Assembly: GCF_000332315.1 (NCBI RefSeq)
Contig: NZ_KB235933.1
Coordinates: forward strand, 586,856 to 650,855
DNA length: 64,000 nucleotides
Direction of reading: 5' to 3'
Source of the DNA: Prochlorothrix hollandica PCC 9006 = CALU 1027
GTDB lineage: Bacteria > Cyanobacteriota > Cyanobacteriia > Prochlorotrichales > Prochlorotrichaceae
Below the pieces are notes generated by a model, which was given only the letters and a program-made list of their open reading frames with translations, searched no databases and was not told the DNA's origin. The position numbers and the translations under genes were made by a program. Position 1 is the first letter of the stretch. The number at the start of each line of letters is the position of its first letter. Below, piece after piece: positions 11,324-34,638 of the stretch.

Positions 11324-11336
11324 AAATACATCTCCA

Positions 11337-15200: not shown

Positions 15201-15527
15201 CCGCCTTGCGATTGGTTTGCCCTGCTCTCGCTTTACCCATTGCCAAATCTGTTGATTGAGATCGTAGTAAACGATGAAATGCTCACGACTATATTTGAGA
15301 GCTTCCTTATCGATCTTTGTTCTTGTGGCATAGTCAGGCACACTATTACAGCCATAGACCATCATTCCCCGTTTTTGGGCGATCTGTTTTAGTAGAAAAT
15401 CTTGACCATCAATAGTTAGTAAAATCTCCTGACTTGAGGCTCTGTCCCACAATAATTCTTCAATGAATAGCGATTGAAAATCTAGCTGTTTGAGATAGTT
15501 ACTGGCTTTCTTGCGATTGATAGGCAT
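12279..15527 (-). CDS. Eco57I/PglX-like N6-adenine DNA methyltransferase
   Basis: 1082 residues, the size of type IIG/PglX/DISARM-type methyltransferases. SAM-binding motif I is LDPTCGSGAFLFAAL (~485-500) and the catalytic motif IV is IIGNPPYVELKK (~740), i.e. gamma-type N6-adenine methylation. About 450 residues precede motif I and a C-terminal half, presumably target recognition, follows. I see no obvious nuclease motif in the N-terminus. It lies 4 bp after the PLD-helicase gene, so it would modify host DNA while the helicase-nuclease cuts unmodified DNA. The closest known layouts are ATP-dependent PLD restriction systems (NgoAVII/CglI type) and DISARM; drmA and drmB are missing here. Confidence 0.85.
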   Translation of the reverse strand: MPINRKKASNYLKQLDFQSLFIEELLWDRASSQEILLTIDGQDFLLKQIAQKRGMMVYGCNSVPDYATRTKIDKEALKYSREHFIVYYDLNQQIWQWVKREQGKPIARREQKVYANQSGEALLQKLDAIAISFEEEEKITLVDVTSRASKVFDVDKVTKKFYERFKKVHEDFLKRIAGIQSQFDQEWYASLMLNRLMFIYFMQKKHFLDGNINYLQERLALCQKEYGNDQFYSFYRYFLLRLFHDGLGKQARTPELDKLLGKIPYLNGGLFEEHPLEQANTDIQIPDIAFTAIFNFFDQYDWHLDDRPLRSDKEINPDVLGYIFEKYINQKQMGAYYTKEDITEYISKNCIIPYLFDATQKESDGALWRLLRDSPDLYIYEAVRKGVDIPLPDDIEAGISDVSKRTNWNKSASADYALPTETWREHVARRTRCLDLREKLSKSEITKINDLITYNLDIRQFAQDAIGSCESADFLLAFYRAIEKISILDPTCGSGAFLFAALNILEPIYDACLDRMQGFIDDCDRSDDPKAAQRHQEFRQILENVGKHNNRRYFILKSIIINNLYGVDIMEEATEICKLRLFLKLVSQVEADPKKPNYGIEPLPDIDFNIRAGNTLVGFATLEEVRKAVNTESSGQGKLIFDDTLERIEKSAVAVDQIFQEFRSLQSVDNADSKQLVTKKNELRSSLGKLNDELDRYLADEYKKGQSKKPELFQKWKSSHQPFHWFVEFYGIVSQDGFDVIIGNPPYVELKKLTYVLKGYATEKSGNLYAPVIERCFSLTNKKGKSGMIIPHSAICTDRMECLINLFANINIWLSSYDVRPSKLFDDVDQRLLIYITAFSNKNLFTSKYHRWASGYRPFLFSILQYVSLETNNIVPNSIAKVCSEVELRILEKITSNSPLSLQQQLSLPKIFFHNAPRYFIRVMDTVPYFWNEREGEKISTQIKSLSFGNSHKTRIAGSVLNSNLFYWWFIAFSDSRHLNNREIDFFPLTIENISKQIAQQLVDLFEILNRDFEENKYRKEAYYKATGNVIYDEYYPKKSKPIIDEIDRILAQHYGFSPEELDFIINYDIKYRMGKDDGGED

Positions 15528-17523: not shown

Positions 17524-18784
17524 GGCTCTCTGGGAATGAGGCCGTATAGTGTATAATAGGTTACGTCTTGAGTGAAGTCAGCTTATGTTCCTTTCTTTAA
17601 ATCAAATCATTAAGATTCCTGGCTGGGAAGTATGGAATACCAACATAGAGAGTGACCGTATTACCTTTTTGCTAAGGTATTTGAACGAGATAGAGGTTTG
17701 TCATTTTTGTGGCTCGAAACAGATTTCCGTCCATAAAATCCGCAAAGTATCAGTAAGAGACTTAGAGTTTTTAGACAAGAAAACCTTTTTAGAATTAGAG
17801 AGACACCAATACTACTGCAATGAGTGTCGTAAATATTTTACTGAATCGTCCAGCGACATCGACTTTCAACGCGGAATGACAGAAAGATACAAAAATAGAA
17901 TCTTTGAGAAAATTAAAAATTCAACGATTACCCATGTTGCTCAAGAAGAAGGTTTAACTTACGATCAAGTAAAAGGTATTTTAGAATCAAAATTTAATGG
18001 AAGCAACAATCTGAATTGCAATATCAATAAAATAAGTATAGATGAGTTCAGTCACCGTAAAGGTCAGGGAAACTTTGCGACAGTGATTTGTGATTTAGAA
18101 ACAGCAAATCTCATCGAAGTGATTGACTCTCACCAACAGGATAAAATCATCGAAATCCTTATGGAGTGGCCGTTAGAGGTAAGAGAGGCTATTACAGAGG
18201 TTAGTGTAGATATGTGGGGCGGATTTACAAAAGTCATCCAAACTGTGTTCCCAAATGCACGTATTGTATATGATCGTTTTCATGTCATGAAAATCTTGAA
18301 TGAAGAACTTAATAAAATACGAAAACAGTGTAATTCGGTGCTTAAAGATCTCAAAATAAAGCATATCCGTAGCCTTATTCTAAAAACGGAACAGATCTTA
18401 ATGACGAAGAAAAAAGCTCCTAGAAATCATCCTGAAATCCTCTGAAAGGCTAAGCAATGCCTATCAGCTAAAGGAAGATTTTCGTCAAATCTATGAAACA
18501 GATCAAGAACCTGAAGTGGCTAAAGTTAAATTAGAAGAATGGTTAGCCAAAGACATCCAAATTTTAATAGTCAAGTAATCACGACAATCAAAAATACATT
18601 TTGTATGGAATCTGTAATTACTTTTATAACCGTACAACTAGCGGTAAAATGGAGGGAATTAATAACAAAATAAAGGTTATCAAGCGTCAAGCTTATGGAT
18701 TCACAAACTTTGATCATCTGAGAATGAGACTCCTCATAGCCTGTTCTCATTAGTTTTACTTATCAGCCTCATTCCCAGAGAGCC
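17524..18784 (+). mobile_element. ISL3-family insertion sequence (1261 bp)
   Basis: The ends are perfect 19-bp inverted repeats: GGCTCTCTGGGAATGAGGC at 17524-17542 and its complement at 18766-18784. An 8-bp target duplication flanks them. The start GGCTCT and the 8-bp duplication are hallmarks of ISL3. Base composition is clearly AT-richer than its host gene. The element carries one transposase frame, now frameshifted, so it is probably no longer autonomous. Confidence 0.95.
17585..18753 (+). pseudogene. ISL3-family transposase, frameshifted twice
   Basis: The first frame runs 17585-18445 (286 codons). It has an N-terminal zinc-binding part (CHFCGS..YYCNECRKYF) and the first two catalytic Asp residues (SIDEFSHRKG, VSVDMWGGF). 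At the A6 run near 18412-18418 the frame changes: KLLEIILKSSERLSNAYQLK continues the family sequence in another frame. Near 18578-18605 it changes again, to NYFYNRTTSGKMEGINNKIK, which carries the catalytic Glu, ending at TAG 18751-18753. All three DDE residues exist, but in different frames, so the gene is inactive unless frameshifting happens twice. Confidence 0.9.
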
Positions 18785-20168
18785 AAACTGCGAGTACGTC
18801 TGACCATGAATAGCCTCATCAAATCTCGCCAATCATCGGGATTACCGCTAAAATCAAAGGCTTTAAGCGATCTCACATCGGCTTGATGCTTCTTTCTAAA
18901 TTCCAGTTCACCACCAATAGAATCTATGTACTTTTCAGGTCGTATGCCTAGATTCCGATCCTCTGGGATAAACAACTGGAACTGAGAAGAGAGATCGAGA
19001 AATGTTTTGTTATAGGGTGTCGCCGTGAGCAAAATACATTTGCTTTCGTTGGTGTCGATGTACTCCTGAATAGCTCTAAACCTTTTGCCTTCCCGGTTGC
19101 GTAGGTTATGACTTTCATCAATCAATACCACACGATAACGGCGTAAGTCCTTGAGTTCATCCTGTACGCGACTAATCGACATGACCTTAGCAATTAATCG
19201 ATACTCAGCTACATAGTCCTCCCACATGGGGACAAGGTTCTTGGGGCAAATGATCAGGGTCTCTAGAAATGAGTCATCCTGCAACACTCTGGCCAGGGCT
19301 GTAGCAATCATGGTTTTACCAAGTCCCACAACATCGGCAATCATCACGCCGCCGCGTCTGTTGACATGGTGAGCCGCAATTTTGACGGCAGCTTCTTGAA
19401 ACTTAAACAGCTTAAATTCCTTCGGTAATCGGTACTCCGATATTCCTGCCCTTGCCTCTTGAGACAAGTGATAAACCATCTTTAAGTAGATGTGATATGG
19501 CGGTGTCAGTTCTTCCCTAGCCCAACTCTCATCAATGACTTCCGCTAGTTCCTTAGAAATATCAACACAAAATTTATCTGTCCATTTATCTTCAAACCAT
19601 TCTTCTAGCGTTGCTGTTGCCACATGGTCATTAACATCTATGTTGAGTTCACCTTGTTTCGACAGTCCCGAAAAAGTGAGGTTGCTACTCCCCAAAAAAC
19701 CGAGGCGTGGTGTTTTCTCTGGTACATGGACTAGATACAGCTTGGCATGAAGTGTATGACGCAAAAACAATTGAACCGTAACTTTTCCCGCTTTTAGTTG
19801 AGCGCTTAACCTCCTTAGCGCCGCTTCATCTTGGTTATTTGGTGCACCATAGGTTAATTGGGCGCGAAACTCTTCCACATACCTACGTTTGCGCCTCGCT
19901 GCCTCTTGAAGATCTATACCTTTATATTCGCTATTCAAACTTAAAAAAGCTTGAAGATCTTCTTTTGGTAAGGTCTGCATTCCCACTAGCAAACGACATT
20001 GTGAGTCTTCGGTTCCCGCAAATTTCTCGATCTCATCTTCGATAGATCGCCATCCCCTCAAATTGACATAGCCAACGCAAAAATCAGCCCTAGTCGCACC
20101 ATCTAAGGTACTTTTTAACTCTGGGAGTAGCCGTTGCTGCATATTGTCAAAAATTCTTGGCATCGTCC

Positions 20169-21172: not shown

Positions 21173-21985
21173 TCACCGATAGCCATTCTGGGGAAAATCC
21201 CAGCCCGATCGCTCTTCCAGCCTCTCCAGGGAAATCACTCCCCCCCCTGCCCCGTCATAGTCTTGGCCCTGGTCAAACAACCAAGCCTGGATCTCTCTGT
21301 CCTGGGCTGTGATGACCTTCCAGACCGCTGAGGGGATCCGGTGTTGTTCATCGGCCTTGGGCAAGGTGCCCATTTCCTTCTCGTAGGCCGTGCCCACAAT
21401 CACCCAAACATTTCCCTTTGCAGCTAGCGATCGCTCCAGCCGCTCCACCTCCAACCATGCTCCCCGGTTCAAGCTGGAATCCTGGGGAATGATGTTGCTG
21501 AGATAATTGACCTGTTCCCAGTTGGCCCCCCTGAAGCTGGCTAACGGTGCCAAGTGCCCGCGATCGACCTTCAAGGCTCCATAGGCTCCGGTGTAATCTT
21601 CCGGCTCCAGGGTTTCCCCCGGTGGCAATTCGGGATCCGCCTTCCAGACCCGATCCTGCTCTACTTCCGCCCCCTGCCCCACGATCGCGGCGTTCAGGCG
21701 ATAGGCAACCCAGTCCGCAAACTTAGTTTCTGGATTATTCGAGAGGCAGTAAATGTCTCGCACTACCAGACTCCCGCTGCTACCCTCCTTGATGGGTTCC
21801 CCCTGGGGTAGATGTTGGGGACAGGCTAGGGATTCAATTCCCGCGATCGCCTGAATCGTTCCACCCTGATCAGTTCCACCCTGACTGGTGATCCCCTGGG
21901 GTGTACTCCACACGGTCCAAGCCCACAATGCAAACCCCCCGACGGCGGATAGGGTGGCGATCGTTTCGTTGACGAATTTTGCCAT
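21173..21985 (-). CDS. Exported or membrane-anchored DNA/RNA non-specific endonuclease (NUC1 family)
   Basis: 270 residues. The N-terminal hydrophobic segment (about 10-27, LSAVGGFALWAWTVW) is a signal anchor. The catalytic motif DRGHLAP (~140) of the Serratia nuclease family is intact, followed by NYLSNIIPQDSSLNRGAWLEVE, which supplies the Asn for the metal site. It would cut DNA or RNA in the periplasm or medium, for example in nutrient scavenging, against incoming DNA or in competition. The gene is divergent from the secreted protein at 22048, with starts 63 bp apart, so promoters share one short region. Confidence 0.88.
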   Translation of the reverse strand: MAKFVNETIATLSAVGGFALWAWTVWSTPQGITSQGGTDQGGTIQAIAGIESLACPQHLPQGEPIKEGSSGSLVVRDIYCLSNNPETKFADWVAYRLNAAIVGQGAEVEQDRVWKADPELPPGETLEPEDYTGAYGALKVDRGHLAPLASFRGANWEQVNYLSNIIPQDSSLNRGAWLEVERLERSLAAKGNVWVIVGTAYEKEMGTLPKADEQHRIPSAVWKVITAQDREIQAWLFDQGQDYDGAGGGVISLERLEERSGWDFPQNGYR

Positions 21986-22047: not shown

Positions 22048-22689
22048 ATGCAATTAAAATCGATTTTTTCCACCCTCACACTTTCTCTTGTTGCCCTGGG
22101 TTCCCTGGGACCCGCGATCGCTCAAACCTTCGAGCGTGACAGTACTGGGACGCGGGTTGTCGTTTCTGAGTTAACCCCTTACGAATCCTATAAGACGACC
22201 TACGCTATTCCCAAAACTCGCACGGTCTCCAATAATGCCTGCGGATTCTATACCCTGAGTTCTACGTCCGCCTACCCCTTCACCACGGGGCACGTTATCA
22301 ACATCAACGGCACCAACCAGACGGTTGGATCCCTAACCTCTGTCGTTACTCCCCGTTGCACCGATGGGCAGATCGTGGACAATCCTGGAAACGGGATTTA
22401 CCAGAACAGTGACGGGAAGATCTTTGTGATGGGCGGCGCTCCTTATGGCCAAATCACCCTCTCCTATAACAATATTCCCCTGGTTCGCAGCAGCAAGGCT
22501 AATTCTTGCGGGCATATCCTTCTGTCCCATACCACCGGATCCTATTCCGGTTACACCGGCGCGTTAACCGTCCGCGACTCTACCAATACCACCACCGTTG
22601 GCTCTGCTACCGTCTCCAGTCTCAGCCCTGGCGCTACTGCCATTTGTCGGTCTGGGGTGACCTACGTTCCTGCGGGTTCCAACCCGTAA
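22048..22689 (+). CDS. Secreted protein of unknown function (213 aa)
   Basis: The start is the ATG at 22048, preceded by GGGAGGATCCCCC; an upstream frame-mate at 21979 is less likely because it lies before the signal peptide. MQLKSIFSTLTLSLVALGSL then GPAIAQ is a clear signal peptide with AxA-type cleavage. The mature part is rich in Ser, Thr, Gly and Tyr with two similar halves: NNACGFYTLSS and ANSCGHILLSHTTG, each followed by a beta-rich segment and a second Cys. This suggests a duplicated beta-sandwich with one disulphide each. No family was recognised. Confidence 0.65.
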   Translation: MQLKSIFSTLTLSLVALGSLGPAIAQTFERDSTGTRVVVSELTPYESYKTTYAIPKTRTVSNNACGFYTLSSTSAYPFTTGHVININGTNQTVGSLTSVVTPRCTDGQIVDNPGNGIYQNSDGKIFVMGGAPYGQITLSYNNIPLVRSSKANSCGHILLSHTTGSYSGYTGALTVRDSTNTTTVGSATVSSLSPGATAICRSGVTYVPAGSNP

Positions 22690-22723: not shown

Positions 22724-22750
22724 AGCCCGATCTTCGGATCGGGCTTTTTT
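22724..22750 (+). terminator. Rho-independent terminator
   Basis: AGCCCGATC-TTCG-GATCGGGCT followed by six T: a 9-bp stem with a stable UUCG loop, 35 bp after the secreted-protein gene. Its end abuts the stop of the convergent gene at 22750. Confidence 0.9.
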
Positions 22751-23835
22751 CATGGATGCCACGATCGCACCATCCCATCCCGGCCCATCCACCGGATCCC
22801 CAAGTTGGTCCAGTCTTCCCCCGCGTTTTCCTGCAACCATGACACCTCCCACCCGTCCCCTAGAACATTGGTTTCGTGATATTCCACCGATCGCCGGTCG
22901 TAACTGGGGTGAGTCTGCTGGATTACCTGGGGCTGAGTCCGTCTCTGGGCCAAGGCGATCGCGTCCGGGCTGGGTTCCCAAGATGAGGTCGCCACATAAA
23001 TCCATTCGGGATCAGGCTCTGGCTCTGGTGCATCACCGAAATAAATCCAGAACAGCCCCGCCGCCCTGGAACCATCACCATAGAACCGTTTAGTCGGGTG
23101 CCCCCATGTGCCCTGCCAGTATTTGATAGCCGCCCGATCGCTGTACCATTCCAACATTCTGGCCGCCGCTGCCCTGATCTCTTCATCCTGGGCAAAGTCC
23201 CACAGGTTCAACCAACAAACAAAGCCCTGGCCGTGGTAGGCCGCGCTATTCCACTCTGCTAGGCCCATGGTTTCGGTGAGTCGCGATCGCTCCAATAATC
23301 GCTCCCTGTAGTCCCCTAGAACATCGTCCGCCCCAACCTCTTCCGCCATCAGGAACAGGGAAGATTCCACCATTAACCCGAGGTTTTCGGTTCCCCTGCA
23401 ATCCACTAGGGTCCGGCACGATTCCCCGCCTTCCCAGAACTCCCTGATCCCCGTCGCCGGCGTGGGTTTTTGGGCCGCTAGCGCCATGGCATTCTTCACC
23501 CGATCGCAATGTTCTAGGGGAAGCCTGTAACCCTTGCACAGTAGGAAATACGCCCTAACCTGCGCCTTTAGCGTAAACCCAGAAAACAGGTCTATTCCCA
23601 GGGTCAGCGCCTGGGGGTCTGGCTGGGTTAGGGTGGCAGTGCCCATGGGGTTCCCCTCCAGCACTTGGGCGATCGCTACCGGGTAGGACCGCTTCTCATA
23701 TTCATATTCAATGCTGGCCCATGACTGAACTGCCAGAATCCCGATCGCTCTCTCTTTCCGTTCTCCAGGACTGGATAGCGTCGGCAATTGCCAGCAGATC
23801 AATAACATCAGGGCACTCGTCCAGGTCTTCAGCAT
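22750..23835 (-). CDS. Exported protein, unknown (361 aa)
   Basis: The N-terminus MLKTWTSALMLLICWQLPTL is a signal peptide. The mature protein is helical with repeated Trp/Tyr/Asp-rich segments (AEWNSAAYHGQGFVCWLNLW, RMLEWYSDRAAIKYWQGTWG), which resemble an alpha/alpha-toroid of the kind found in polysaccharide lyases and glycosidases. I see no decisive catalytic motif, so this is a guess. It is the last gene of the overlapping minus-strand train and overlaps its upstream neighbour by 128 bp. It also contains three copies of the island 13-mer (22856, 23312 and 23509). Confidence 0.6.
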   Translation of the reverse strand: MLKTWTSALMLLICWQLPTLSSPGERKERAIGILAVQSWASIEYEYEKRSYPVAIAQVLEGNPMGTATLTQPDPQALTLGIDLFSGFTLKAQVRAYFLLCKGYRLPLEHCDRVKNAMALAAQKPTPATGIREFWEGGESCRTLVDCRGTENLGLMVESSLFLMAEEVGADDVLGDYRERLLERSRLTETMGLAEWNSAAYHGQGFVCWLNLWDFAQDEEIRAAAARMLEWYSDRAAIKYWQGTWGHPTKRFYGDGSRAAGLFWIYFGDAPEPEPDPEWIYVATSSWEPSPDAIALAQRRTQPQVIQQTHPSYDRRSVEYHETNVLGDGWEVSWLQENAGEDWTNLGIRWMGRDGMVRSWHP

Positions 23836-24199
23836 TTACCGGCTTCAACTTTAGTTCCTTGATCAGCATTTCCCCCACAGTTTCCCAGTCAATAGCTGCC
23901 GGGTCGATCGCGGGGGGTGGGTAGCACCTCAGGATGTTCTGTTGGCTGGTCCAGTCATCCCAACTCAACTGGCCCAACTCTTCCAGACTGTCCCGATCGC
24001 TCCCCAGCCGGTAAGTGTCTATGGTTTCCTGCTCTCGCTCTCTGGCTTCTTCATAGTGATATCCGATCACATACCTGAACCACTCCAGCAGTTCCAGTGT
24101 CGTTGGTGCCCTGTCCTCCTCGATCGCATCGATGAGCAATAAACCCGTCTTGGGCCGTAGCCAGGATGATAATAATTCCAGAATATTGGGCGCTTTCAT
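23708..24199 (-). CDS. Small acidic protein, unknown (163 aa)
   Basis: Soluble and acidic, with helical segments (TTLELLEWFRYVIGYHYEEA, DSLEELGQLSWDDW) and no recognisable domain. The frame overlaps the O-antigen-ligase-like gene by 149 bp and the next gene by 128 bp. The long overlaps make the start uncertain; a GTG at about 24073 (RYVIGYHY) would leave only a 23-bp overlap. Position in the train suggests a helper of the exported proteins. Confidence 0.5.
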   Translation of the reverse strand: MKAPNILELLSSWLRPKTGLLLIDAIEEDRAPTTLELLEWFRYVIGYHYEEAREREQETIDTYRLGSDRDSLEELGQLSWDDWTSQQNILRCYPPPAIDPAAIDWETVGEMLIKELKLKPVNAEDLDECPDVIDLLAIADAIQSWRTERESDRDSGSSVMGQH

Positions 24200-25214
24200 G
24201 CCAAAACATCATAAAAAACAAATGATAAGCCAGTATCCCTAGCGGTAGCTTCCGAATACTCCACCATAGGGCCGCGCCATGGAATACCATACCGGGCCAT
24301 CCTCCGGCGATCGCTGCATCTAGGAACCAATTGCCCGCCCTGGTGTTGTAGATCGGATCCCCCTGCTCCAGGAACCAATGAGCTAGGCCGTCAAAGCCCC
24401 AACCGGTAACTGGTCTCTGCTGGATAGCTTTCAGGGCTTCCCCCCACAGCCAGATCCGATCGCTGGTGAAGTTCTTGATCCACTGACTTGATCCAATGCT
24501 CCGCCCTGCACTCCAATAAGCTGCCAGCCCTGCCGCCGTCAATAGAATCCCCGCTGCCCATGGATTCCTCCGCCATTGGCACCACAGGGCTAACCCCAGC
24601 CCCATCACCACGATTCTGGTCTGGGTCATTGCAGCCCCCATCGTTCCGATCGCCAAGGCCAACCAATAATCCGCCCCCATCTCCAGGGCCACGATCGCCC
24701 CCAACCCTGAGACATATCCAGCCTGTCCCCGGTGAGCGAATAGTCCGTTAGGCAGTCCCCCTGGGTCTGCCGGGAAGGGTGCAATGTTCCAGAGTGCTGC
24801 AACCGACGCGATCGCACATCCCCAGACAATCCCCCGCACCATCGCCCGTTTCTCGTCCTGGTTCAGGCCGTCCCCGGTGAGCAATACCCAGGCCGCTACA
24901 TTCCACCACAGCAGTCCCGCGCCATAGCCGCCCGCTCCCCAGACACTCATTCCGGGAACGGGCGAAACCGCAGTGCTGCACGTCATCCACAGCAGGAAGG
25001 CGCTCCACAGCCCCAAGGTCTTCCACCATTCGGGATCTATTCTTGGCGATCGCGTCCACACTGCAACAGTCTGGACCAGGGCGATCGCTGCCAACACCGC
25101 CAGCCGGGGCAATACCAGCATTTCCCCGACATTCTGGCCCCATGGCCACACCGCTAGCACCTCCAGCGCCGCTAGGCCCATTAGCAGCCCTGGGGTGAAT
25201 TTGCCGATCTTCAT
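24051..25214 (-). CDS. O-antigen ligase/Wzy-like multi-pass membrane protein
   Basis: The start is the ATG at 25214, which overlaps the preceding stop as ATGA and has GGAGG just upstream (387 residues). About ten hydrophobic helices are seen, with a larger loop near 270-315 holding SSQWIKNFTSDRIWLWGEAL then RPVTGWGFDGLAHWF, the segment typical of the Wzy/WaaL O-antigen ligase superfamily (RxxxW and GxGxG-like loop). Such enzymes join or polymerise glycans on the periplasmic side. It is translated with the upstream coiled-coil and HlyD-like genes, so an envelope or exopolysaccharide role for the whole train is plausible. Confidence 0.7.
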   Translation of the reverse strand: MKIGKFTPGLLMGLAALEVLAVWPWGQNVGEMLVLPRLAVLAAIALVQTVAVWTRSPRIDPEWWKTLGLWSAFLLWMTCSTAVSPVPGMSVWGAGGYGAGLLWWNVAAWVLLTGDGLNQDEKRAMVRGIVWGCAIASVAALWNIAPFPADPGGLPNGLFAHRGQAGYVSGLGAIVALEMGADYWLALAIGTMGAAMTQTRIVVMGLGLALWCQWRRNPWAAGILLTAAGLAAYWSAGRSIGSSQWIKNFTSDRIWLWGEALKAIQQRPVTGWGFDGLAHWFLEQGDPIYNTRAGNWFLDAAIAGGWPGMVFHGAALWWSIRKLPLGILAYHLFFMMFWHESAQYSGIIIILATAQDGFIAHRCDRGGQGTNDTGTAGVVQVCDRISL

Positions 25215-26329
25215 GTTCCCTCCGTGCCCAACACTAACAACTGGATTCGGGTAAGCTGCGATCGCATCTTGGCCCAAGCTCTGTAGGCGTTCCCCTTCTC
25301 CCGGTCGATTGCACTCAGCCCGGTCAAATATTGGCTCGTGTCATAGTTGCCAAAGCGGTAATCGATCGCAAACAACTGGTGCTGCACCGTCTGGCGCTTC
25401 GCTATTTCCTGGGAGATCTGGAAGTCTCGGCGGTAAACATCGAAATCAATCACCTGTAACACCACCTGCTCGGCTATGGTGTCCGCGATCTTCTGCCGCT
25501 CCGCCTCAACTTGGGCGATCTTCACCTGTAGATCACTGATCGCGATCTCCCTGGCTTGGGAAGCGTCACCGATCCTGAAGGTGCCGTTAAAGAGGGGAAC
25601 GCCAACAAAGGACAACAATTCATTGATTCCCTGCAATGGGTTGGCGATCGCCCTGGCTATTTTCTGGAAAAATCCGATCTCCCGTTCCTGGTTCTGTACC
25701 CTGGACTGCCCGGTGAGTAAGTCCGAGACAATGACTTGCTCTGTCTCCACCTCCAGCCGTACCAGACTTTCAATGTAGGGGGTAAAGCTTCCCAGGGTTA
25801 TCGATCGCTGGTTCCTGGCCCTGGCTTCATCGATCTTCTCACTGACAAGCTCTACCCGTTCATCGATCGCAGATAACGCCCTGTGATTCCTCACCGCTAG
25901 GTTTTGCAGTTGCTGGATACATTCGCTGGAACTGTCCAGGCAGGGCAGATCTCCCAGCATGGATTCCCAGAGATCATCATTGATCGTGGTCTGTATCAGT
26001 TGCTCCAGGTTCCCCCCCACAGGGTTCAGTGGGTTGGGGCTGGGCTTTCCCGGCAAGTCTTCCAACCCCCCCTGAAAACTTTCACCCTCGCTGTCGCCAT
26101 ATTCTTCGTCGAACCCGTCTTCCGTGAACTCCTCAAAATCCTCCTCAAAAACTTCTTCTTCCTCGACAAACTCTTCTTCCACCGGCTCCTCCCCGTCATC
26201 CTGGGCGATCACCACTGGGACTGGGAAGCCGTTACTCTGGGCCGTCGCCACTGGGGCGATCGTCGTCACCACTAAACAGATCAGAGCCGCTGTCGCTAGT
26301 TCCGATCGTGACCTCAACGTTAAGTTCAT
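25211..26329 (-). CDS. Exported acidic coiled-coil protein (372 aa)
   Basis: The ATG at 26329 is preferred because MNLTLRSRSELATAALICLV then VTTIAPVATAQ is a proper signal peptide; an upstream frame reaches 26383. Residues about 40-85 are an extreme acidic tract (runs of E/D with V and F), followed by long amphipathic helices (SAIDERVELVSEKIDEARAR, LQVKIAQVEAERQKIADTIA) like the periplasmic helices of TolC-type or adaptor-associated proteins. The family is not recognised. It overlaps the HlyD-like gene by 98 bp and is coupled through ATGA to the ligase-like gene. Confidence 0.6.
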   Translation of the reverse strand: MNLTLRSRSELATAALICLVVTTIAPVATAQSNGFPVPVVIAQDDGEEPVEEEFVEEEEVFEEDFEEFTEDGFDEEYGDSEGESFQGGLEDLPGKPSPNPLNPVGGNLEQLIQTTINDDLWESMLGDLPCLDSSSECIQQLQNLAVRNHRALSAIDERVELVSEKIDEARARNQRSITLGSFTPYIESLVRLEVETEQVIVSDLLTGQSRVQNQEREIGFFQKIARAIANPLQGINELLSFVGVPLFNGTFRIGDASQAREIAISDLQVKIAQVEAERQKIADTIAEQVVLQVIDFDVYRRDFQISQEIAKRQTVQHQLFAIDYRFGNYDTSQYLTGLSAIDREKGNAYRAWAKMRSQLTRIQLLVLGTEGT

Positions 26330-27194
26330 TATCTTTCTGCCCCAACCATTTAATTCTGCGGACCACGCCATCATAGGGGGCAATTACAGTTGATAACGTG
26401 GCTAGCTCCCCCTCCACCCCCCGCAACTTCTCTTCTAGCTGGGCCAACTGAAAATCCCGATCGCGGCGTTGCTGTTCACTGGCCTGTAGCTGGAACCTAT
26501 AGCTCAGTCTGGCCTGGTTAGCTTCCTCCTGCCGTCGCGCTACTTCCACGCTGTAGCGGTATTCTTCAGCCTGTCGATCGCTTTGGGCTTTACTGAGTGC
26601 TGCCCGCTTTTCGTCGGCGGCGTGGCGTAAGTCCTCCAACACCACCTGCTCATGCTGCATCACCACCGGGGGAACTGATTCCCCCACCAGTAACCCGATC
26701 GCGTCTACCTTCCGTTCCTGGAGATCAACTAGTCTGGCCGCCGTAGCAATGGCCCGCTCTTCCTCTTCATAGTTGGCTGGCTGTAGCTCTGCGATCGGAT
26801 TCACCGGCAATGGTGCGATCGGATCCAAAATCTCCCGCGCCTTAATCTGCTTAATGGATAGGGTAATGGCCCCCTTTTGTCGCAGTAACAATTCCCGCTG
26901 GCGGGTGCGATCGCTGAGAGCCTGTCCCGCCTCCACCAAATCGCCCTTGGCTACTTTTAGATCTGCTGGTTCGCTCAGAGTCAAATCGAATTTCAGGATC
27001 TTGGGCCTGTCGTCGTTGGGTTCTGCCGGTGGCAGGTCGTCTGGGGGGTCGCTTACCAGGTCTGTGGTGTCAGCTTGGGCGATCGCTAACACTTCCCAAT
27101 TAGCCCAAATCGCTATGCTCCATCCCCCCACTATTCCCAGGGTGAGGACGGTTACCAGCAACTCCCCGATCGTGATCTGCCCGATCCGCTTCAT
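26232..27194 (-). CDS. HlyD-like membrane fusion / adaptor protein
   Basis: 320 residues from the ATG at 27194, coupled as ATGA to the upstream stop. One N-terminal membrane helix (IGELLVTVLTLGIVGGWSIA) is followed by a split biotinyl-lipoyl motif: PADLKVAKGDLVEAGQALSD near 85 and VIAPYDGVVRRIKW near 285, with long coiled-coil helices between. This is the plan of HlyD/EmrA adaptors that bridge an inner-membrane transporter and an outer-membrane channel. No transporter ATPase of ABC type is in the train, so the partner may be elsewhere or the protein may be structural. Confidence 0.75.
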   Translation of the reverse strand: MKRIGQITIGELLVTVLTLGIVGGWSIAIWANWEVLAIAQADTTDLVSDPPDDLPPAEPNDDRPKILKFDLTLSEPADLKVAKGDLVEAGQALSDRTRQRELLLRQKGAITLSIKQIKAREILDPIAPLPVNPIAELQPANYEEEERAIATAARLVDLQERKVDAIGLLVGESVPPVVMQHEQVVLEDLRHAADEKRAALSKAQSDRQAEEYRYSVEVARRQEEANQARLSYRFQLQASEQQRRDRDFQLAQLEEKLRGVEGELATLSTVIAPYDGVVRRIKWLGQKDNELNVEVTIGTSDSGSDLFSGDDDRPSGDGPE

Positions 27195-28225
27195 GCGGAC
27201 CCCCTGATCCGTTCCCGGATAATTACGTCGCCCTCTAATATCCAAAAATCCCTTAGCGCCTCCCACACTTGCGTTCTGGTGGCCCATGTCAGCACCACAT
27301 CAGTTCCCGATATTTCCACCCTGGGATATTGCTCCGGATCCTTGGCGATCAATACTTCCTCCACATCATCGATCGCCAACCTCCCGGAAATATACCCGGT
27401 CTTGGGTAGCGATCGGATCCATTCATCGGCCCCAACTTCCCTGGGTGCCTGGGTTTCGTATTGGGTCGTTAGTGGTTCCCCCAATGTGGATTTAACCCGC
27501 TGGGCGTAGATCTGCACTCCCGCGCCCTGGCCAACCTGGTAGATCTTCCCTTCGCTGTCCATGGCTAAGACATTGCTGCCCATGGCTTCCAGCACCTCTA
27601 GCCGCTCCCCTATGGGCTGGCCGCTGAGTTGGTGGGAGCCTTTCACCTCAACCCAAACCACCTGGCTTCCACCGTATTTGTTCAGCATCTCCGCCGCTGT
27701 TGAGGTTTGCAGCACTAGCCCTCGACCGACGATCTCAGATATTCCCCCGGAACTGTTTAGGTTTACTAGGCCAATAGTGGCGATCGTGGCCATGGCTAAG
27801 ATCCAATATTCCGCCTTACTCCCCGATCGCAGTCGTGCCCGTGGATTGCCCGGAATAACCAATCTGGCATCGTCCGGCCAAAATGCTTCGACACCTGCTC
27901 TGGTGTAACTGTCTGCCAGCCATCCCACAAAGTAGCCAATCACGGCACAGCCCCACCAATGCCACTGGCCCCAATATCCCAGGGGTAGGGCCGCGATCGC
28001 TATTGCTCCAGTCGCCACAAAACTATGAGTGGCGGACCTGTGGGGGTAACGCTGCTCGATCCAATTCGAGATCGGCCAAAGGACTCTACCAGAAAGGCTG
28101 GTGGTGGTGTCTACGTCCGGTAACTGGGACGCGATCGCCGCTATCCCCAGAGAAACCGGATCAGATATCCCCATCACTCCCGCTGCTGCCGCCATTGATA
28201 GAAATGCGTGAGTTGCTGCAAACAT
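27191..28225 (-). CDS. DUF457/YdjM-type membrane-bound metal-dependent hydrolase-like protein
   Basis: 344 residues. The N-terminal half has the family marks: HAFLSMAAAAG at the start, QLPDVDTTTS near 34 and YPHRSATHSF near 60, giving the His/Asp metal set on a bundle of four or five membrane helices (LADSYTRAGVEAFWP follows). The C-terminal half is a soluble extension without a known domain (VEISGTDVVLTW and so on). It is coupled by overlap with the AAA ATPase gene before it and the HlyD-like gene after it. Confidence 0.75.
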   Translation of the reverse strand: MFAATHAFLSMAAAAGVMGISDPVSLGIAAIASQLPDVDTTTSLSGRVLWPISNWIEQRYPHRSATHSFVATGAIAIAALPLGYWGQWHWWGCAVIGYFVGWLADSYTRAGVEAFWPDDARLVIPGNPRARLRSGSKAEYWILAMATIATIGLVNLNSSGGISEIVGRGLVLQTSTAAEMLNKYGGSQVVWVEVKGSHQLSGQPIGERLEVLEAMGSNVLAMDSEGKIYQVGQGAGVQIYAQRVKSTLGEPLTTQYETQAPREVGADEWIRSLPKTGYISGRLAIDDVEEVLIAKDPEQYPRVEISGTDVVLTWATRTQVWEALRDFWILEGDVIIRERIRGSA

Positions 28226-29061
28226 TACTGCCTACCTAGTCGCGTTGATTTCTTGTTGATCGCTCCCAATAGGGTCCGCAGCACATACATCAAGGTCATG
28301 GCTACGCCCCCAAGAATATAGAGGGAGCGATCGCCCAAACCCAACCCCACAAACCGGACGATCGCCACTGTGCCAAGGGCCGCAACTAAAAACGGTGTGC
28401 CGTCTACATAGCGGTAATGGTCTGTTCCCGCCTGATCTTCCCCCATCCCCAGGGCGTATTCCCTAACCACCCTCCGGGCTAGGGCTGGGTTCCCCCCTAC
28501 TCGCTCTTGCAGTGCTGCCAAGTCCTTGACCTTGAGGCTCACCCCCAAGGTACTGGCTTCCTCTGCCATCACCGATCGCGCCTGATCTGGGCTTACCCTG
28601 TCCAGACTGATCCGGGGAATCTTCACAAATATCCCGCTGGCCTGGGGCCGATCCGCGATCATCATCAGCAGCGCCTTATCCTTCCAGCAAGCTTCCAGCC
28701 AATAGCGGGCGCTCTGGGGCCACCTCTCGGCATCGTCGCAGATCAGCAGCACCTTATCCCGCTTCAGCTCATACCCAATTTCCCGCCGTAGATCATCCGC
28801 CGATAGCTGCCGGGTTTTGCCGCTCTCCGTTTCCTGCTCCAGGGGAATACCCAAGGCTTCCGCTATCTCTATCAGCAGCGCCTTTGATGCGCCCAAATAG
28901 GTGGAGTTGGCCACCGTGTAACCCTGCTCTTCCATGGCAAACTGCACCGATCGCGCAACAGTGGACTTCCCACTACCCGGCTCCCCGAGTAGCAGGATCG
29001 ATTCCCCTTCTAGTAGGGCCGCGATCGCCTGATCGATTTGCTCCTGATGCAATGCCAGCAT
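28225..29061 (-). CDS. AAA ATPase with C-terminal membrane helices (ExeA/TniB-like)
   Basis: 278 residues. Walker A is LLGEPGSGKSTVA (~25-36) and Walker B is VLLICDDAERW (~105), followed by an Arg-containing lid region (VGGNPALARRVVREYALG) as in ExeA/TniB-type ATPases. Two hydrophobic stretches near the end (TPFLVAALGTVAIVRFVGLG, SLYILGGVAMTLMYVL) would anchor it in the inner membrane. ExeA-like ATPases energise assembly of envelope machines, which fits the HlyD-like and DUF457 neighbours. It overlaps the next gene by one base. Confidence 0.75.
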   Translation of the reverse strand: MLALHQEQIDQAIAALLEGESILLLGEPGSGKSTVARSVQFAMEEQGYTVANSTYLGASKALLIEIAEALGIPLEQETESGKTRQLSADDLRREIGYELKRDKVLLICDDAERWPQSARYWLEACWKDKALLMMIADRPQASGIFVKIPRISLDRVSPDQARSVMAEEASTLGVSLKVKDLAALQERVGGNPALARRVVREYALGMGEDQAGTDHYRYVDGTPFLVAALGTVAIVRFVGLGLGDRSLYILGGVAMTLMYVLRTLLGAINKKSTRLGRQ

Positions 29062-29305
29062 CGTAATACCTCCAACTTCTGCAAATTCGGACGGATCTCA
29101 GAATCCCCGCTGCCACTAGGATTTTGCAACCCCGCCTTACCTGTTTATAGGTAAGCTCCGATCGCTCCACCATCTGCCAGCGGGTTATCCCTGGGCAATC
29201 ACTGACTAGCTCGATAATCGCCGCCCTGGTTTTCCGCCCCCTGCTTTGTCCCTCGACAATAATTCCCGCGATCGCTTCCATCTCAACACAGAATCCTTCC
29301 CGCAC
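28973..29305 (-). CDS. Small winged-helix protein (110 aa)
   Basis: The segment TRAAIIELVSDCPGITRWQM then SELTYKQVRRGCKILVAAGI-LRSVRICRSWRYY is a winged helix-turn-helix of MarR/GntR-like build: helix, turn, recognition helix, then a beta wing. A short basic tail overlaps the ATPase start by 89 bp. It is probably the local transcription regulator of this train. An alternative start at MEAIAGIIVEG eight codons later is possible. Confidence 0.6.
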   Translation of the reverse strand: MREGFCVEMEAIAGIIVEGQSRGRKTRAAIIELVSDCPGITRWQMVERSELTYKQVRRGCKILVAAGILRSVRICRSWRYYDAGIASGANRSGDRGPTRRGIDPATRGAG

Positions 29306-29742
29306 GGCTTTCCACTCGCTTTCGCTACAGCTTGCCGGTATCCCTCCAGGGTAGTACCGGGCTTCTTTTTGTACGTCCGATCGCAGATCTGATAGATCAG
29401 TTGCAGCCTGGGGGATAGGTGTTCCTTCCCCACCCTGGGATCCACGGTTGGATCCAATGTTCTAGGGGACAGCTTTGGGGCTGGATCAGAACCTGGGTCG
29501 ATCGCTGGGTCTGGGAGGACTGGGAGGACTGGTGCAGGGGGTGGGGGTGGTAGGGGCGATCGCAGCTTGGGGACTGGTGTTGGTAGGGGTGCTGGTAGGG
29601 GGACAGTTCCGGGGCGATTCCCCAGGCGGGCTGGGTTCTTGGTGGTCGCCTTTGGCTCGGCGATCGCTGGGGGAAACAACCATTTCCAGATCTCCTCCAA
29701 GGTGTACTGAGTCCAGGGCTTACGCTGCTTTGTGGTGACCAT
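29206..29742 (-). CDS. Proline-rich protein, unknown (178 aa)
   Basis: The start is the ATG at 29742 (MVTTKQRKPWTQYTLEEIWK). A folded-looking N-terminal 30 residues precede a long Pro/Leu/Ala linker (KLRSPLPPPPPAPVLPVLPD) and a basic C-terminal part (SPRLQLIYQICDRTYKKKPG, EGYRQAVAKASGKPCGKDSV) that may bind DNA. One island 13-mer (29457-29469) lies inside the gene. Function unknown. It overlaps both neighbours. Confidence 0.5.
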   Translation of the reverse strand: MVTTKQRKPWTQYTLEEIWKWLFPPAIAEPKATTKNPARLGNRPGTVPLPAPLPTPVPKLRSPLPPPPPAPVLPVLPDPAIDPGSDPAPKLSPRTLDPTVDPRVGKEHLSPRLQLIYQICDRTYKKKPGTTLEGYRQAVAKASGKPCGKDSVLRWKRSRELLSRDKAGGGKPGRRLSS

Positions 29743-30262
29743 GGCTCCCCCCCTTCCACCAATCTTCTGCCGATAGAAAAGCCACCCCTGCATTGCGGGC
29801 TGCTTCCGCGTCCTCTGGGCGATCGCCCACCATCAAGCATTCTTCAGTGATGTCGGTTCGCATATCCAGCGCTAGGCGCAACATTCCCGGCTCTGGTTTC
29901 CGAAAGCTGCCAACCCAGGGCAACCCCGATTTATGGCCGTGGAGGGGAAAGGGTTCGAGCGATCGGCGCACAATCCAGCACTCTTTCCCCCCGTAGTCCG
30001 GGCAAAACAAGATCAACTCCAACTCTGGAAACAGCCTGAGCTTCCATCGCTGTTCGATCACACAGTCGTTGAAACTTTTGTGGCCCGCTCCCACTCCCCC
30101 CTGGTTTGTGATGCCCACAACAAATCGTTCGGGTTCAGCGACCTTCACCTGTCTCAATGCGATCGCGGCCTCTGGGATCGCCCTGTAGTCATGGGGGTTC
30201 TGCCCAAAATTCGCTCCCGATGCTGTGGTGGTTAACGTTCCGTCAATATCAACTAAAAGCAT
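29720..30262 (-). CDS. HAD-family phosphatase (HisB-N / PNKP-3'-phosphatase-like)
   Basis: The ATG at 30262 gives MLLVDIDGTLTTT, the HAD motif I DxDGT, right at the start as usual; the longer frame to 30313 has no support. Motif II is VVGITNQGG, motif III lies near FRKPEPGMLRLAL, and motif IV is VGDRPEDAEAARNAG. The size (180 aa) and absence of a large cap resemble the HisB N-terminal and polynucleotide-3'-phosphatase group. It is the first gene of the minus-strand train; its substrate is unknown. Confidence 0.8.
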   Translation of the reverse strand: MLLVDIDGTLTTTASGANFGQNPHDYRAIPEAAIALRQVKVAEPERFVVGITNQGGVGAGHKSFNDCVIEQRWKLRLFPELELILFCPDYGGKECWIVRRSLEPFPLHGHKSGLPWVGSFRKPEPGMLRLALDMRTDITEECLMVGDRPEDAEAARNAGVAFLSAEDWWKGGSHGHHKAA

Positions 30263-31655: not shown

Positions 31656-32600
31656 ATGCGCTTTCTTGACCCTAAAACTGACTTTGCCTTCAAAAAAATC
31701 TTTGGTTCAGCGGAAAGCAAGCCTATTCTGATTGAGTTCCTCAATGCTTTGGTTTATGACAGCCAACCGATCGTCCAAGACTTAGAAATTCTCGACCCCT
31801 ACCAAGCCCCCCAGCTTCAAGGCGTAAAAGACACCTTTCTAGACGTGAAAGCCCAGCTAGCGGACGGGACAATGGTGTTGATTGAAATGCAGGTGTTGAA
31901 CCCCCTAGATTTTAATAAACGGGTGTTGTACAACGTAGCCAAAGCCTACTCCCTGCAACTGCAACGGGGCCAGGGCTACAGTCGCCTGCGTCCAGTCATT
32001 GGTCTGACCATTACGGACTTTGTGCTGTTTCCCGAACGCGATCGCTTTCTCTCCCATTATCAGTTGCTCGATCGGGAAGACGGCCTACCCTATGGCGATG
32101 ACATAGAACTAGTCTTTGTGGAATTACCCAAATTTGCCAAGTCCCTAGGCGATCTGGAGACCCTCACAGATCTCTGGACATTTTTTCTCCAGCAAGCCGG
32201 TGACCTAGAGGACATTCCATCCCCTCTGGACTCCAGTCCCAACCTGGATCATGCGTTTCACATTGCCGAGACCGTCAACTTGAGCATGGAGGAATTTGAC
32301 CTGCTGGAGAAGCAAGCCTTCCGGGTGGAAGACGGTCGCAATGTGGTGCGGCGGGCGCTCCTGGAAGGGCGACAGCAGGGGCGGGAAGAAGGCCGCGAAG
32401 AAGGCCGCGAAGAAGGCCGCGAAGAAGGCCGCGAAGAAGGCCGCGAAGTAGGGCGCACGGAGGGAGAGCAGCAGCGGAGTCGAGACATTGCCCGATCGCT
32501 GCGGGGATTGTTACCGGTGGCGGTGATTGCAGAGCGGACGGGGCTAACCCTGGCGGAGGTGGAAACGCTAGCGGCGGCAGATGCAGCAGCGGGCACCTGA
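31656..32600 (+). CDS. Rpn family PD-(D/E)XK nuclease, copy 1 of 4
   Basis: 314 residues starting MRFLDPKTDFAFKKIFGSAE, the standard start of Rpn/PDDEXK_2 proteins. The nuclease core is VKDTFLDVKAQLADGTMVLI then EMQVLNPLDFNKRVLYNVAK (Asp in DTFLDV, Glu-x-Gln in IEMQ). A charged linker of GREE units, five full units plus GREV here, leads to a C-terminal helix pair (SLRGLLPVAVIAERTGLTLA). Rpn proteins cut DNA and promote RecA-independent recombination. GGAGGGTAACCC precedes the ATG. It forms a tandem block with three near-identical copies. Confidence 0.9.
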   Translation: MRFLDPKTDFAFKKIFGSAESKPILIEFLNALVYDSQPIVQDLEILDPYQAPQLQGVKDTFLDVKAQLADGTMVLIEMQVLNPLDFNKRVLYNVAKAYSLQLQRGQGYSRLRPVIGLTITDFVLFPERDRFLSHYQLLDREDGLPYGDDIELVFVELPKFAKSLGDLETLTDLWTFFLQQAGDLEDIPSPLDSSPNLDHAFHIAETVNLSMEEFDLLEKQAFRVEDGRNVVRRALLEGRQQGREEGREEGREEGREEGREEGREVGRTEGEQQRSRDIARSLRGLLPVAVIAERTGLTLAEVETLAAADAAAGT

Positions 32601-32716
32601 GGACTGGTTTTTTGGGTTTGGTATGATGTCGGAGCGATCGATCTTGCGATCGCTGAACCACCCCAGCCGCCAGTGTCGGCGATCGAGTTCAGGTTTGACT
32701 ATCTAGAGGGTAACCC

Positions 32717-33601
32717 ATGCGCTTTCTTGACCCTAAAACTGACTTTGCCTTCAAAAAAATCTTTGGTTCAGCGGAAAGTAAGCCCATTCTGATTGAGTTT
32801 CTTAATGCCTTGGTTTATGACAGCCAACCGATCGTCCAAGACCTAGAGATTCTCGACCCCTACCAAGCGCCCCAACTCCAGGGTGTGAAAGACACCTTTC
32901 TAGACGTGAAAGCCCAGCTAGCGGACGGAACCATGGTGTTGATCGAAATGCAGGTATTAAACCCCCTGGACTTTAACAAGCGCGTCCTCTACAACGTGGC
33001 CAAAGCCTACTCCCTGCAACTGCAACGGGGCCAGGGCTACAGTCGCCTGCGTCCGGTCATTGGCCTGACCATTACGGACTTTGTGCTGTTTCCAGAACGC
33101 GATCGCTTTCTCTCCCATTATCAACTCCTCGATCGGGAAGACGGCCTACCCTACGGTGATGACATAGAACTAGTCTTTGTGGAATTACCCAAATTTGCCA
33201 AGTCCCTAGGCGATCTGGAGACCCTCACAGATCTCTGGACATTTTTTCTCCAGCAAGCCGGTGATCTAGAGGACATTCCATCCCCTCTGGACTCCAGTCC
33301 CAACCTGGATCATGCGTTTCACATTGCCGAGACCGTCAACTTGAGCATAGAGGAATTTGACCTGCTGGAGAAGCAAGCCTTCCGGGTGGAAGACGGTCGC
33401 AATGTGGTGCGGCGGGCGCTCCTGGAAGGGCGACAGCAGGGGCGGGAAGAAGGGCGCACGGAGGGAGAGCAGCAGCGGAGTCGAGACATTGCTCGATCGC
33501 TGCGGGGATTGTTACCGGTGGCGGTGATCGCGGAGAAGACGGGGTTGACGGTGGCGGAGGTGGAGGCGCTGGCGGCGGCAGATGCAGCAGCGGAAACCTG
33601 A
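32717..33601 (+). CDS. Rpn family PD-(D/E)XK nuclease, copy 2 of 4
   Basis: 294 residues, almost identical to copy 1 over the first 230. It has the shortest charged linker (one GREE unit before GRTEGEQQ) and small changes near the end (IAEKTGLTVAEVEAL). The 116-bp intergenic segment, with its own ribosome site GAGGGTAACCC, is repeated between all copies, so each unit includes its upstream sequence. Synonymous differences cluster in patches, as expected from gene conversion. Confidence 0.9.
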   Translation: MRFLDPKTDFAFKKIFGSAESKPILIEFLNALVYDSQPIVQDLEILDPYQAPQLQGVKDTFLDVKAQLADGTMVLIEMQVLNPLDFNKRVLYNVAKAYSLQLQRGQGYSRLRPVIGLTITDFVLFPERDRFLSHYQLLDREDGLPYGDDIELVFVELPKFAKSLGDLETLTDLWTFFLQQAGDLEDIPSPLDSSPNLDHAFHIAETVNLSIEEFDLLEKQAFRVEDGRNVVRRALLEGRQQGREEGRTEGEQQRSRDIARSLRGLLPVAVIAEKTGLTVAEVEALAAADAAAET

Positions 33602-33717
33602 GGACTGGTTTTTTGGGTTTGGTATGATGTCGGAGCGATCGATCTTGCGATCGCTGAACCACCCCAGCCGCCAGTTCTGGCGATCGAGTCCAGGTTTGAC
33701 TATCCAGAGGGTAACCC

Positions 33718-34638
33718 ATGCGCTTTCTTGACCCTAAAACTGACTTTGCCTTCAAAAAAATCTTTGGTTCAGCGGAAAGTAAGCCCATTCTGATTGAGTT
33801 TCTTAATGCCTTGGTTTATGACAGCCAACCGATCGTCCAAGACTTAGAAATTCTCGACCCCTACCAAGCCCCCCAGCTTCAAGGCGTAAAAGACACCTTT
33901 CTAGACGTGAAAGCCCAGCTAGCGGACGGGACAATGGTGTTGATTGAAATGCAGGTGTTGAACCCCCTAGATTTTAATAAACGGGTGTTGTACAACGTAG
34001 CCAAAGCCTACTCCCTGCAACTGCAACGGGGTCAGGGCTACAGTCGCCTACGTCCAGTTATTGGCCTGACCATTACGGACTTTGTGCTGTTTCCCGAACG
34101 CGATCGCTTTCTCTCCCATTATCAGTTGCTCGATCGAGAAGATGGCCTACCCTATGGCGATGACATAGAACTCGTTTTTGTGGAATTACCCAAGTTTGCC
34201 AAGTCCTTAGGCGATCTGGAGACCCTAACGGATCTCTGGACATTCTTTCTCCAGCAAGCCGGTGATCTAGAGGACATTCCATCCCCTCTGGACTCCAGTC
34301 CCAACCTGGATCATGCGTTTCACATTGCCGAGACCGTCAACTTGAGCATGGAGGAATTTGACCTGCTGGAGAAGCAAGCCTTCCGGGTGGAAGACGGTCG
34401 CAATGTGGTGCGGCGGGCGCTCCTGGAAGGGCGACAGCAGGGGCGGGAGGAAGGCCGCGAAGAAGGCCGCGAAGAAGGCCGCGAAGTAGGGCGCACGGAG
34501 GGAGAGCAGCAGCGGAGTCGAGACATTGCTCGATCGCTGCGGGGATTGTTACCGGTGGCGGTGATCGCGGAGAAGACGGGGTTGACGGTGACGGAGGTGG
34601 AGGCGCTGGCGGCGGCAGATGCAGCAGCGGAAACCTGA
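33718..34638 (+). CDS. Rpn family PD-(D/E)XK nuclease, copy 3 of 4
   Basis: 306 residues with three GREE units plus GREV in the linker, otherwise like copies 1 and 2. The central block (about 33838-34000) matches copy 1 at the DNA level while the upstream ~120 bp matches copy 2, so this copy is a mosaic of its neighbours. Confidence 0.9.
   Translation: MRFLDPKTDFAFKKIFGSAESKPILIEFLNALVYDSQPIVQDLEILDPYQAPQLQGVKDTFLDVKAQLADGTMVLIEMQVLNPLDFNKRVLYNVAKAYSLQLQRGQGYSRLRPVIGLTITDFVLFPERDRFLSHYQLLDREDGLPYGDDIELVFVELPKFAKSLGDLETLTDLWTFFLQQAGDLEDIPSPLDSSPNLDHAFHIAETVNLSMEEFDLLEKQAFRVEDGRNVVRRALLEGRQQGREEGREEGREEGREVGRTEGEQQRSRDIARSLRGLLPVAVIAEKTGLTVTEVEALAAADAAAET

Follow-up and report, generated by a model that had tools for sequence, protein, structure and literature searches.

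A conserved envelope cassette of cyanobacterial plasmids and chromosomes, with a motor-less copy in Prochlorothrix hollandica, as a candidate DNA-handling machine

Two described cases of DNA transfer bear on the cassette analyzed here. Thermus transjugation combines the FtsK-HerA ATPase TdtA, which pushes DNA out, with competence, which pulls DNA in, and TdtA, encoded beside a NurA-like nuclease, is required for donation (PMC5365140). In Synechocystis 6803, transfer of small plasmids was described as DNase sensitive and as proceeding via natural transformation (PMC10667661). Here, we analyze a stretch of 64,000 nucleotides from contig NZ_KB235933.1 of Prochlorothrix hollandica PCC 9006 (referred to as the window), in which a train of ten minus-strand open reading frames (ORFs) runs from 30262 to 22750, every gene overlapping the next one (Table 1). 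All ten genes proposed in a first-pass annotation of the window were confirmed, as were the ATGA couplings at 27194 and 25214. The train is best explained as a mobile cassette in a version that lies on the chromosome and lacks the motor. The cassette core consists of genes for an AAA protein, a YdjM (DUF457) membrane protein, a HlyD-like adaptor and a single-repeat TolC-like protein, and its order and strand are recurrent. No account of it was found in the open PMC literature, a search that did not cover subscription journals.

Searches of 72,556 plasmid records (tblastn) matched YdjM in 72 and AAA in 42, with cyanobacteria predominating; YdjM matches also came from plasmids of Thermus, Nitrosococcus, Allochromatium, Methylobacter, Desulfocapsa and Thiospirochaeta. 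The presence on plasmids that the first-pass annotation had suggested checking was confirmed. At 1e-10, a YdjM profile matched 74 of 388 cyanobacterial genomes, from 45 of 160 genera; 60 genome loci were taken from the better full-length matches of this search rather than from every match, and loci were annotated with profiles made from the window plus plasmid and genome loci collected earlier. Sixty-three of 64 loci were usable (L113, without a long YdjM ORF, was dropped), and 14 of the 63 were too close to contig ends, leaving 49 well-covered cyanobacterial loci, in which the sequence extended ≥1.5 kb upstream and ≥8 kb downstream of ydjM. An AAA gene was located upstream of ydjM in 43 of these 49 loci, while HlyD-like and TolC-like genes were located downstream of it in 46 and 37 loci, respectively; all three were present in 33. 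A helix-turn-helix (HTH) protein was encoded upstream of ydjM in 33 loci. A HerA-like ATPase was encoded in 17 loci and a secreted protein (SPP) on the opposite strand in 22; downstream, 29 loci had a nuclease gene belonging to either of two folds. A recurring gene order had been set beforehand as the point on which the first-pass proposal would stand or fall, and the order recurs across dozens of genomes. The adaptor and DUF457 genes of the set it had named co-occur widely, whereas the Wzy-like gene of that set is an accessory.

A separate search of named genomes yielded 70 loci from cyanobacteria and three metagenome-assembled genomes of Acidobacteriota; as the sets L056-L115 and L116-L185 share some contigs, counts over both are not independent. 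Related cassettes occur on Thermus and Acidobacteriota DNA, and gammaproteobacterial DNA carries the AAA-YdjM pair alone. Three gammaproteobacterial plasmids (L013, L022 and L023) keep this pair with no recognizable adaptor or TolC-like gene in the stretch covered, and the pair may therefore be the true core. Genome-wide uniqueness served as the control for chance, in place of random neighborhoods. The profiles for the adaptor, the TolC-like protein (the coiled-coil [CC] profile) and SPP each gave one match across the 5.65-Mb host genome, all within the cassette.

Carrier plasmids were mostly of types regarded as immobile. PLSDB typing classified 68 of the 72 as non-mobilizable, and none of 21 complete carrier plasmids encoded a relaxase of PF03432 or PF08751 above the cut-off (PF03389 and other MOB types were not searched), nor did the TraG/VirB4 P-loop domain PF19044 pass its cut-off in any of them. 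PF01076 likewise gave no match in these 21, but this family matched in no control genome. The carriers include pSYSX of Synechocystis PCC 6803, whose AAA, ydjM, HerA-like, adaptor and TolC-like genes span 4346-9449 of L015, pAQ5 of Picosynechococcus 7002 and the 19.4-kb Microcystis plasmid p1-NIES88, which encodes YdjM, AAA and two thermonucleases, plus a TolC-like gene detected by tblastn. In genomes of at most seven contigs, 9 of 22 cassettes were on contigs of <1 Mb, and eight genomes had two or more full-length ydjM matches in the YdjM profile search (both hand counts). A phage origin was considered and rejected, the core proteins having no PHROG match of weight except for weak matches of the ATPase; among IMG/VR viral contigs, no relative of the AAA protein was found at the sensitivity of the tool.

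The AAA protein combines a cytoplasmic AAA domain with a C-terminal two-helix hairpin, which is its most conserved part and is common in outline to the Thermus protein (hhalign 8.6e-14). Transmembrane (TM) segments had initially been assigned to its ends; two hydrophobic segments are present, both C-terminal (224-242 and 247-265). The stop of the AAA gene and the start of ydjM overlap, both in the window and in several relatives, and YdjM is translationally coupled to the AAA protein. The end of Thermus YdjM is an adaptor-like stretch (E=3.2e-8; 30 columns), which supports joint working of YdjM and the adaptor.

In many relatives, a gene between ydjM and the adaptor gene encodes a soluble HerA-like ATPase of ~360 aa, a component that could not be seen from the window alone. 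This protein (A9) belongs to the FtsK-HerA superfamily, as its Walker A and B motifs are strictly conserved and it contains a conserved DGRKYGL-type stretch. Its best solved relative is DptH (3.5e-19), with HerA proteins also among the nearest, and its best NCBIfam match is the CedD DNA-translocating ATPase (3.6e-12), followed by antiphage HerA, CedB DNA import and VirB4. The Gloeocapsa and Stanieria homologs (L014, 16047-17462; L020, 14151-15611) have a GIY-YIG-like nuclease segment inserted mid-ATPase. Contrary to expectation, neither the HerA-like query nor the profile had a match anywhere in the genome of P. hollandica. Mapped on a tree of 81 YdjM rows, the HerA label required 3 changes versus 15.8 in shuffles, and the window YdjM was placed within a HerA-less clade of 22 rows (support, 100/100). 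All 56 AAA rows from HerA-carrying loci had an intact P-loop; in rows from HerA-less loci it was intact (52), eroded (16) or truncated (7), so that all 23 eroded or truncated P-loops came from loci without HerA. Because the rows are related and partly derive from the same contigs, this association is a pattern and not a test; the P-loop test used alongside the YdjM tree was looser and differed slightly from this one. The pattern suggests that AAA activity matters where the HerA-like motor is present and that some lineages have lost both. In the P-loop-eroded clade (L018, L074, L089, L092, L094, L099 and L107), the gap between the AAA gene and ydjM contains variable cargo (transposase-like and other unrelated ORFs), reminiscent of an insertion hotspot.

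The best solved match of the HlyD-like adaptor was a CzcB-like adaptor, at E=0.063 only; adaptor relatives in Acidobacteriota have lipoyl Pfam matches (3.7e-5 and 0.0056), whereas the window adaptor has no significant one. What had been described as an exported acidic coiled coil of 372 aa is present but is better labeled a single-repeat TolC/OEP-type protein, the acidic part being an N-terminal linker. Relatives match Pfam OEP (PF02321) at 9.8e-5, 8.2e-6 and 1.7e-9, and others at 0.0009 to 0.009, while the window protein itself has no match. TolC has two OEP repeats per chain. The predicted model of the TolC-like protein (one helix, a beta-hairpin and long helices) corresponds to half a TolC chain, and Pfam covers one repeat in the relatives. 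OprJ and OprM headed the Foldseek results for this model (probability, 1.0; E, 0.045 or worse). Alignment to OprM with VIA-align gave a Z score of 10.5 over 189 residues (root mean square deviation, 10.8), which does not discriminate, since unrelated long-helix proteins reach an equal Z score. The Thermus TolC-like protein did not match the cyanobacterial CC profile (E=0.05), contrary to expectation, and the link between the two is therefore through Pfam OEP alone. Overall, an envelope machine with an adaptor and a coiled coil, as first proposed, is supported.

The limits first drawn for the train are real; however, the cassette extends downstream to about 21173, an opposite-strand SPP gene and a nuclease gene having been overlooked. 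Exported nucleases had been expected nearby, and one rather than several was found beside the train. SPP has conserved cysteines, two domains and a signal-type N-terminus, with no Pfam family and no solved relative. Its AlphaFold model is all beta (pLDDT, 82); no fold is claimed for it, as the best Foldseek E value was 0.046 and the best Z score was 5.8 (72 residues; root mean square deviation, 2.6). The nuclease is of the Endonuclease_NS type in the window and of the SNase type in most other loci, so that two unrelated folds occupy one slot. A simple score detected an N-terminal hydrophobic stretch or lipobox in 28 of 31 nucleases from loci of this class; the window nuclease scored slightly below the threshold used.

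Sequences and models establish that the parts present are those of an envelope machine with nucleic-acid enzymes. As to its function, we lean toward an envelope-spanning machine that would move or process DNA and that was ancestrally driven by the HerA-like motor, and we put the chance of this at somewhat below even. Support comes from the recurrence of order and strand together with an ATPase of the HerA/FtsK family in a part of the loci, from the intact AAA P-loop wherever HerA is present, and from the nucleases, whose one slot is taken by either of two unrelated folds and whose N-termini are mostly of the anchor type. The HTH proteins upstream, the carrier plasmids without known transfer genes and the genomes with multiple ydjM copies point the same way, and TdtA of Thermus is counted here as the nearest tested precedent. 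AAA and YdjM would form the inner-membrane base, with the adaptor and TolC-like rings as a conduit leading to the outer membrane. DNA would be the cargo, pumped in the ancestral machine by the HerA-like motor and trimmed at the periplasmic side by the anchored nuclease, and SPP may work at the cell surface. Plasmid or chromosomal DNA could thereby be donated to neighbors, which would take it up through their competence, in the manner of Thermus transjugation. Since the window copy is motor-less, DNA pumping is less sure here than in relatives; in its clade, the AAA protein with its intact P-loop would supply the energy, or the task may have changed. More specifically, the cassette could encode a so far undescribed machine that exports DNA without a relaxase (an AAA-YdjM base, a HerA-like pump, an adaptor, a single-repeat TolC-like ring, an anchored nuclease and a surface protein) by which "immobile" plasmids of cyanobacteria and Thermus donate DNA to competent neighbors. 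This is possible but doubtful, and motor-less versions such as that of the window would then be derived or borrow another motor.

Several observations weigh against DNA handling. A TolC-type pore is narrow for DNA, the proposed cargo. More than half of the loci, including the window, lack the HerA-like gene, and of 30 genomes with a HerA-less cassette, 29 had no HerA elsewhere (G373 gave a distant match; two positive controls worked). Since one clade has neither HerA nor an intact AAA P-loop, a motor is not obligatory. Moreover, the HerA-like ATPase matches defense families equally well or better (PADLOC mad8, 7.4e-22; DndH, 8.3e-19), and 13 of the 22 cassettes in genomes of at most seven contigs are on contigs of >1 Mb (hand count). 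Finally, SPP and most nucleases look Sec exported and therefore would not need a cytoplasmic pump.

A rival explanation is tripartite protein export, in which Sec would deliver SPP and the nuclease to the periplasm and an adaptor/TolC-like ring would pass them outward, as a surface structure or as a weapon against neighbors. Such a machine would be somewhat like MacAB-TolC, but with an AAA/YdjM base. The high frequency of HlyD-like and TolC-like genes fits this explanation, as do the SPP with its signal-type N-terminus and no solved relative, the position of the SPP and nuclease genes next to the conduit genes, and the retention of conduit parts in versions without HerA and the P-loop. In two Nostoc loci, a Wzy_C gene lies beside SPP on the same strand, which could mean that SPP is glycosylated. 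However, SPP and the nuclease are encoded in only 22 and 29 of the 49 loci, and neither is therefore an obligatory substrate; the N-terminal hydrophobic stretch or lipobox would anchor many of the nucleases, and export of proteins leaves the HerA-like ATPase and its tie to the AAA P-loop unexplained. We regard protein export as rather unlikely, though a serious rival.

Still less probable, but also a serious rival, is a barrier against incoming DNA, in which the anchored nuclease and the envelope complex would cut transforming or phage DNA and so guard the resident replicon. Nucleases of the anchored type, with two different folds sharing one slot, would suit this role, the HerA-like ATPase has relatives in defense systems, and the window copy lies ~9 kb from a pair of genes of a cyclic oligonucleotide-based antiphage signaling system (CBASS) and near restriction-type genes. 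Natural competence occurs in several carriers; for Synechocystis 6803 and Thermus, it is documented in PMC10667661 and PMC5365140, respectively. Nevertheless, the HerA-like ATPase is the only cassette protein with a good resemblance to a PADLOC family, and a barrier would not need a HlyD/TolC-type conduit. A tether between replicon and envelope that serves partition or copy control would account for HTH proteins encoded upstream of the membrane AAA gene, with overlap in some loci, and for several co-resident copies in some genomes. We consider it improbable, as ParA-type genes already stand beside some cassettes, chromosomal copies exist, and the outer-membrane parts and nucleases would have no reason. 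The export of a glycan, which the first-pass annotation had proposed alongside that of a secreted product, rests on the Wzy_C gene of the window and can be virtually dismissed, since searches found Wzy relatives in just two other loci covered and the train encodes no ABC transporter, glycosyltransferase or flippase.

The Wzy-like gene and the unassigned u361 are accessory: relatives of both were found by phmmer between the TolC-like and SPP genes of the two Nostoc loci (L153 and L168), on the strand of SPP, and the annotation of a third Nostoc plasmid, pNOS7524.01, lists a gene of the O-antigen ligase family, plus a hypothetical one, beyond the TolC-like gene. A glycan or capsule locus was rejected as the theme for this reason. 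O-antigen-ligase-like enzymes include protein O-glycosylases, and it is a reasonable guess that the Wzy-like protein may glycosylate SPP. Toward the head of the train, the HAD gene has phmmer relatives in L065 and L150 (3.7e-15), and an HAD-IIIA gene is annotated on p1-NIES88. Some relatives of the Pro-rich protein, although weak (phmmer), are encoded directly upstream of the AAA gene, and the Pro-rich gene is possibly the head gene of the cassette. Pfam scans gave no family above the cut-off for the winged-helix (wHTH) protein and nothing significant for the HlyD-like, coiled-coil, Pro-rich, u163 and u361 proteins; u163 also had no PHROG match.

Table 1. Genes of the ten-gene train and downstream cassette members in the P. 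hollandica window
Feature	Position	Strand	Evidence or remark
HAD-family phosphatase, PNK3P-like	29720..30262	-	Pfam HAD 1.7e-9, PNK3P 1.3e-8; membership doubtful
Pro-rich basic protein	29206..29793	-	Weak phmmer relatives in several loci, best 2.8e-5
Small winged-helix (wHTH) DNA-binding protein, cassette head	28973..29305	-	Cassette wHTH profile, E=3.2e-14
AAA protein, intact Walker A, C-terminal two-TM hairpin	28225..29061	-	Pfam AAA_22 2e-9
YdjM/DUF457 (PF04307) membrane protein, extra C-terminal region	27191..28225	-	Pfam YdjM 1.6e-20; 73.8 bits versus gathering score of 29
HlyD-like periplasmic adaptor, N-terminal TM	26232..27194	-	Single match in own genome
Single-repeat TolC/OEP-type exported protein (CC), 372 aa, acidic N-terminal linker	25211..26329	-	Relatives match Pfam OEP
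Wzy_C/O-antigen-ligase-like membrane protein, accessory	24051..25214	-	Pfam Wzy_C 9.5e-10
u163	23708..24199	-	No relative found; phmmer returns u163 alone
u361	22750..23835	-	phmmer 3e-59 (L153) and 6e-59 (L168)
SPP, secreted two-domain Cys-containing beta protein	22048..22689	+ (opposite strand)	Cassette SPP profile, 9.1e-58
DNA/RNA non-specific endonuclease, N-terminal hydrophobic stretch	21173..21985	-	Pfam Endonuclease_NS 1.1e-32

Other genes of the window were also noted. The CBASS pair (10676-12275, minus strand) encodes a Cap15-type effector with two TM segments (PADLOC, 9.2e-73) and an oligonucleotide cyclase (1.3e-95), and adjoins an Eco57I-type methylase and a helicase gene at 12279-17319, in AT-rich DNA. 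A protein with PLD-like and SNF2/helicase domains, of the restriction-helicase type, is encoded at 18769-20163 (minus strand). On the plus strand, 31656-34638 contains three tandem near-identical genes of 294 to 314 aa (300-nucleotide blocks, 91 to 97% identical), which differ mainly in the count of short EGREEGR-type repeats near the C-terminus and presumably encode Rpn-type recombination-promoting nucleases.

Conserved on many plasmids and in part equipped with a DNA-pump-type ATPase, the envelope cassette offers a testable candidate mechanism by which they spread or defend themselves, and it may help to explain the spread of plasmids without known transfer genes. It is testable at once, as it is present on the well-studied plasmids pSYSX and pAQ5.

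Compared with known systems, the cassette resembles tripartite efflux and type I secretion in its adaptor-type and TolC-type parts, encoded in one operon with an inner-membrane base. However, AAA and YdjM make up its base, joined in some versions by a HerA-like ATPase, and its TolC-like part has one repeat instead of two; no ABC, RND or MFS transporter was found among the ten train proteins (Pfam) or the recurring neighbor clusters examined, the rest of the genome not having been searched. A Wzy-dependent capsule or O-antigen locus would include glycosyltransferases and a flippase, and the Pfam scan detected neither among the train proteins; the first-pass annotation had rightly noted the lack of glycosyltransferases and ABC transporters. 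Conjugative type IV secretion systems share with some relatives of the cassette the coupling-ATPase superfamily, and with the cassette an envelope-spanning design and a location on plasmids, but the 21 complete carrier plasmids lacked the relaxase and VirB4/TraG matches described above. The closest sequence relatives of the HerA-like ATPase are the defense ATPases DptH, DndH and mad8, whereas the partners in the cassette are envelope proteins and the window has no HerA-like gene. Thermus ICETh1 is likewise a mobile element that has no relaxase or type IV secretion system and that combines a nuclease with an FtsK-HerA ATPase, an enzyme type found in some cassette relatives. It differs in that the main text of its description is silent on TolC and no adaptor, YdjM or secreted partner was seen there (PMC5365140, accessible part). 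In addition, the cassette nuclease is SNase or Endonuclease_NS and not NurA, and the window, having no HerA-like gene, falls outside this class. The parts of the cassette are of known folds, and their combination matches none of the systems tested.

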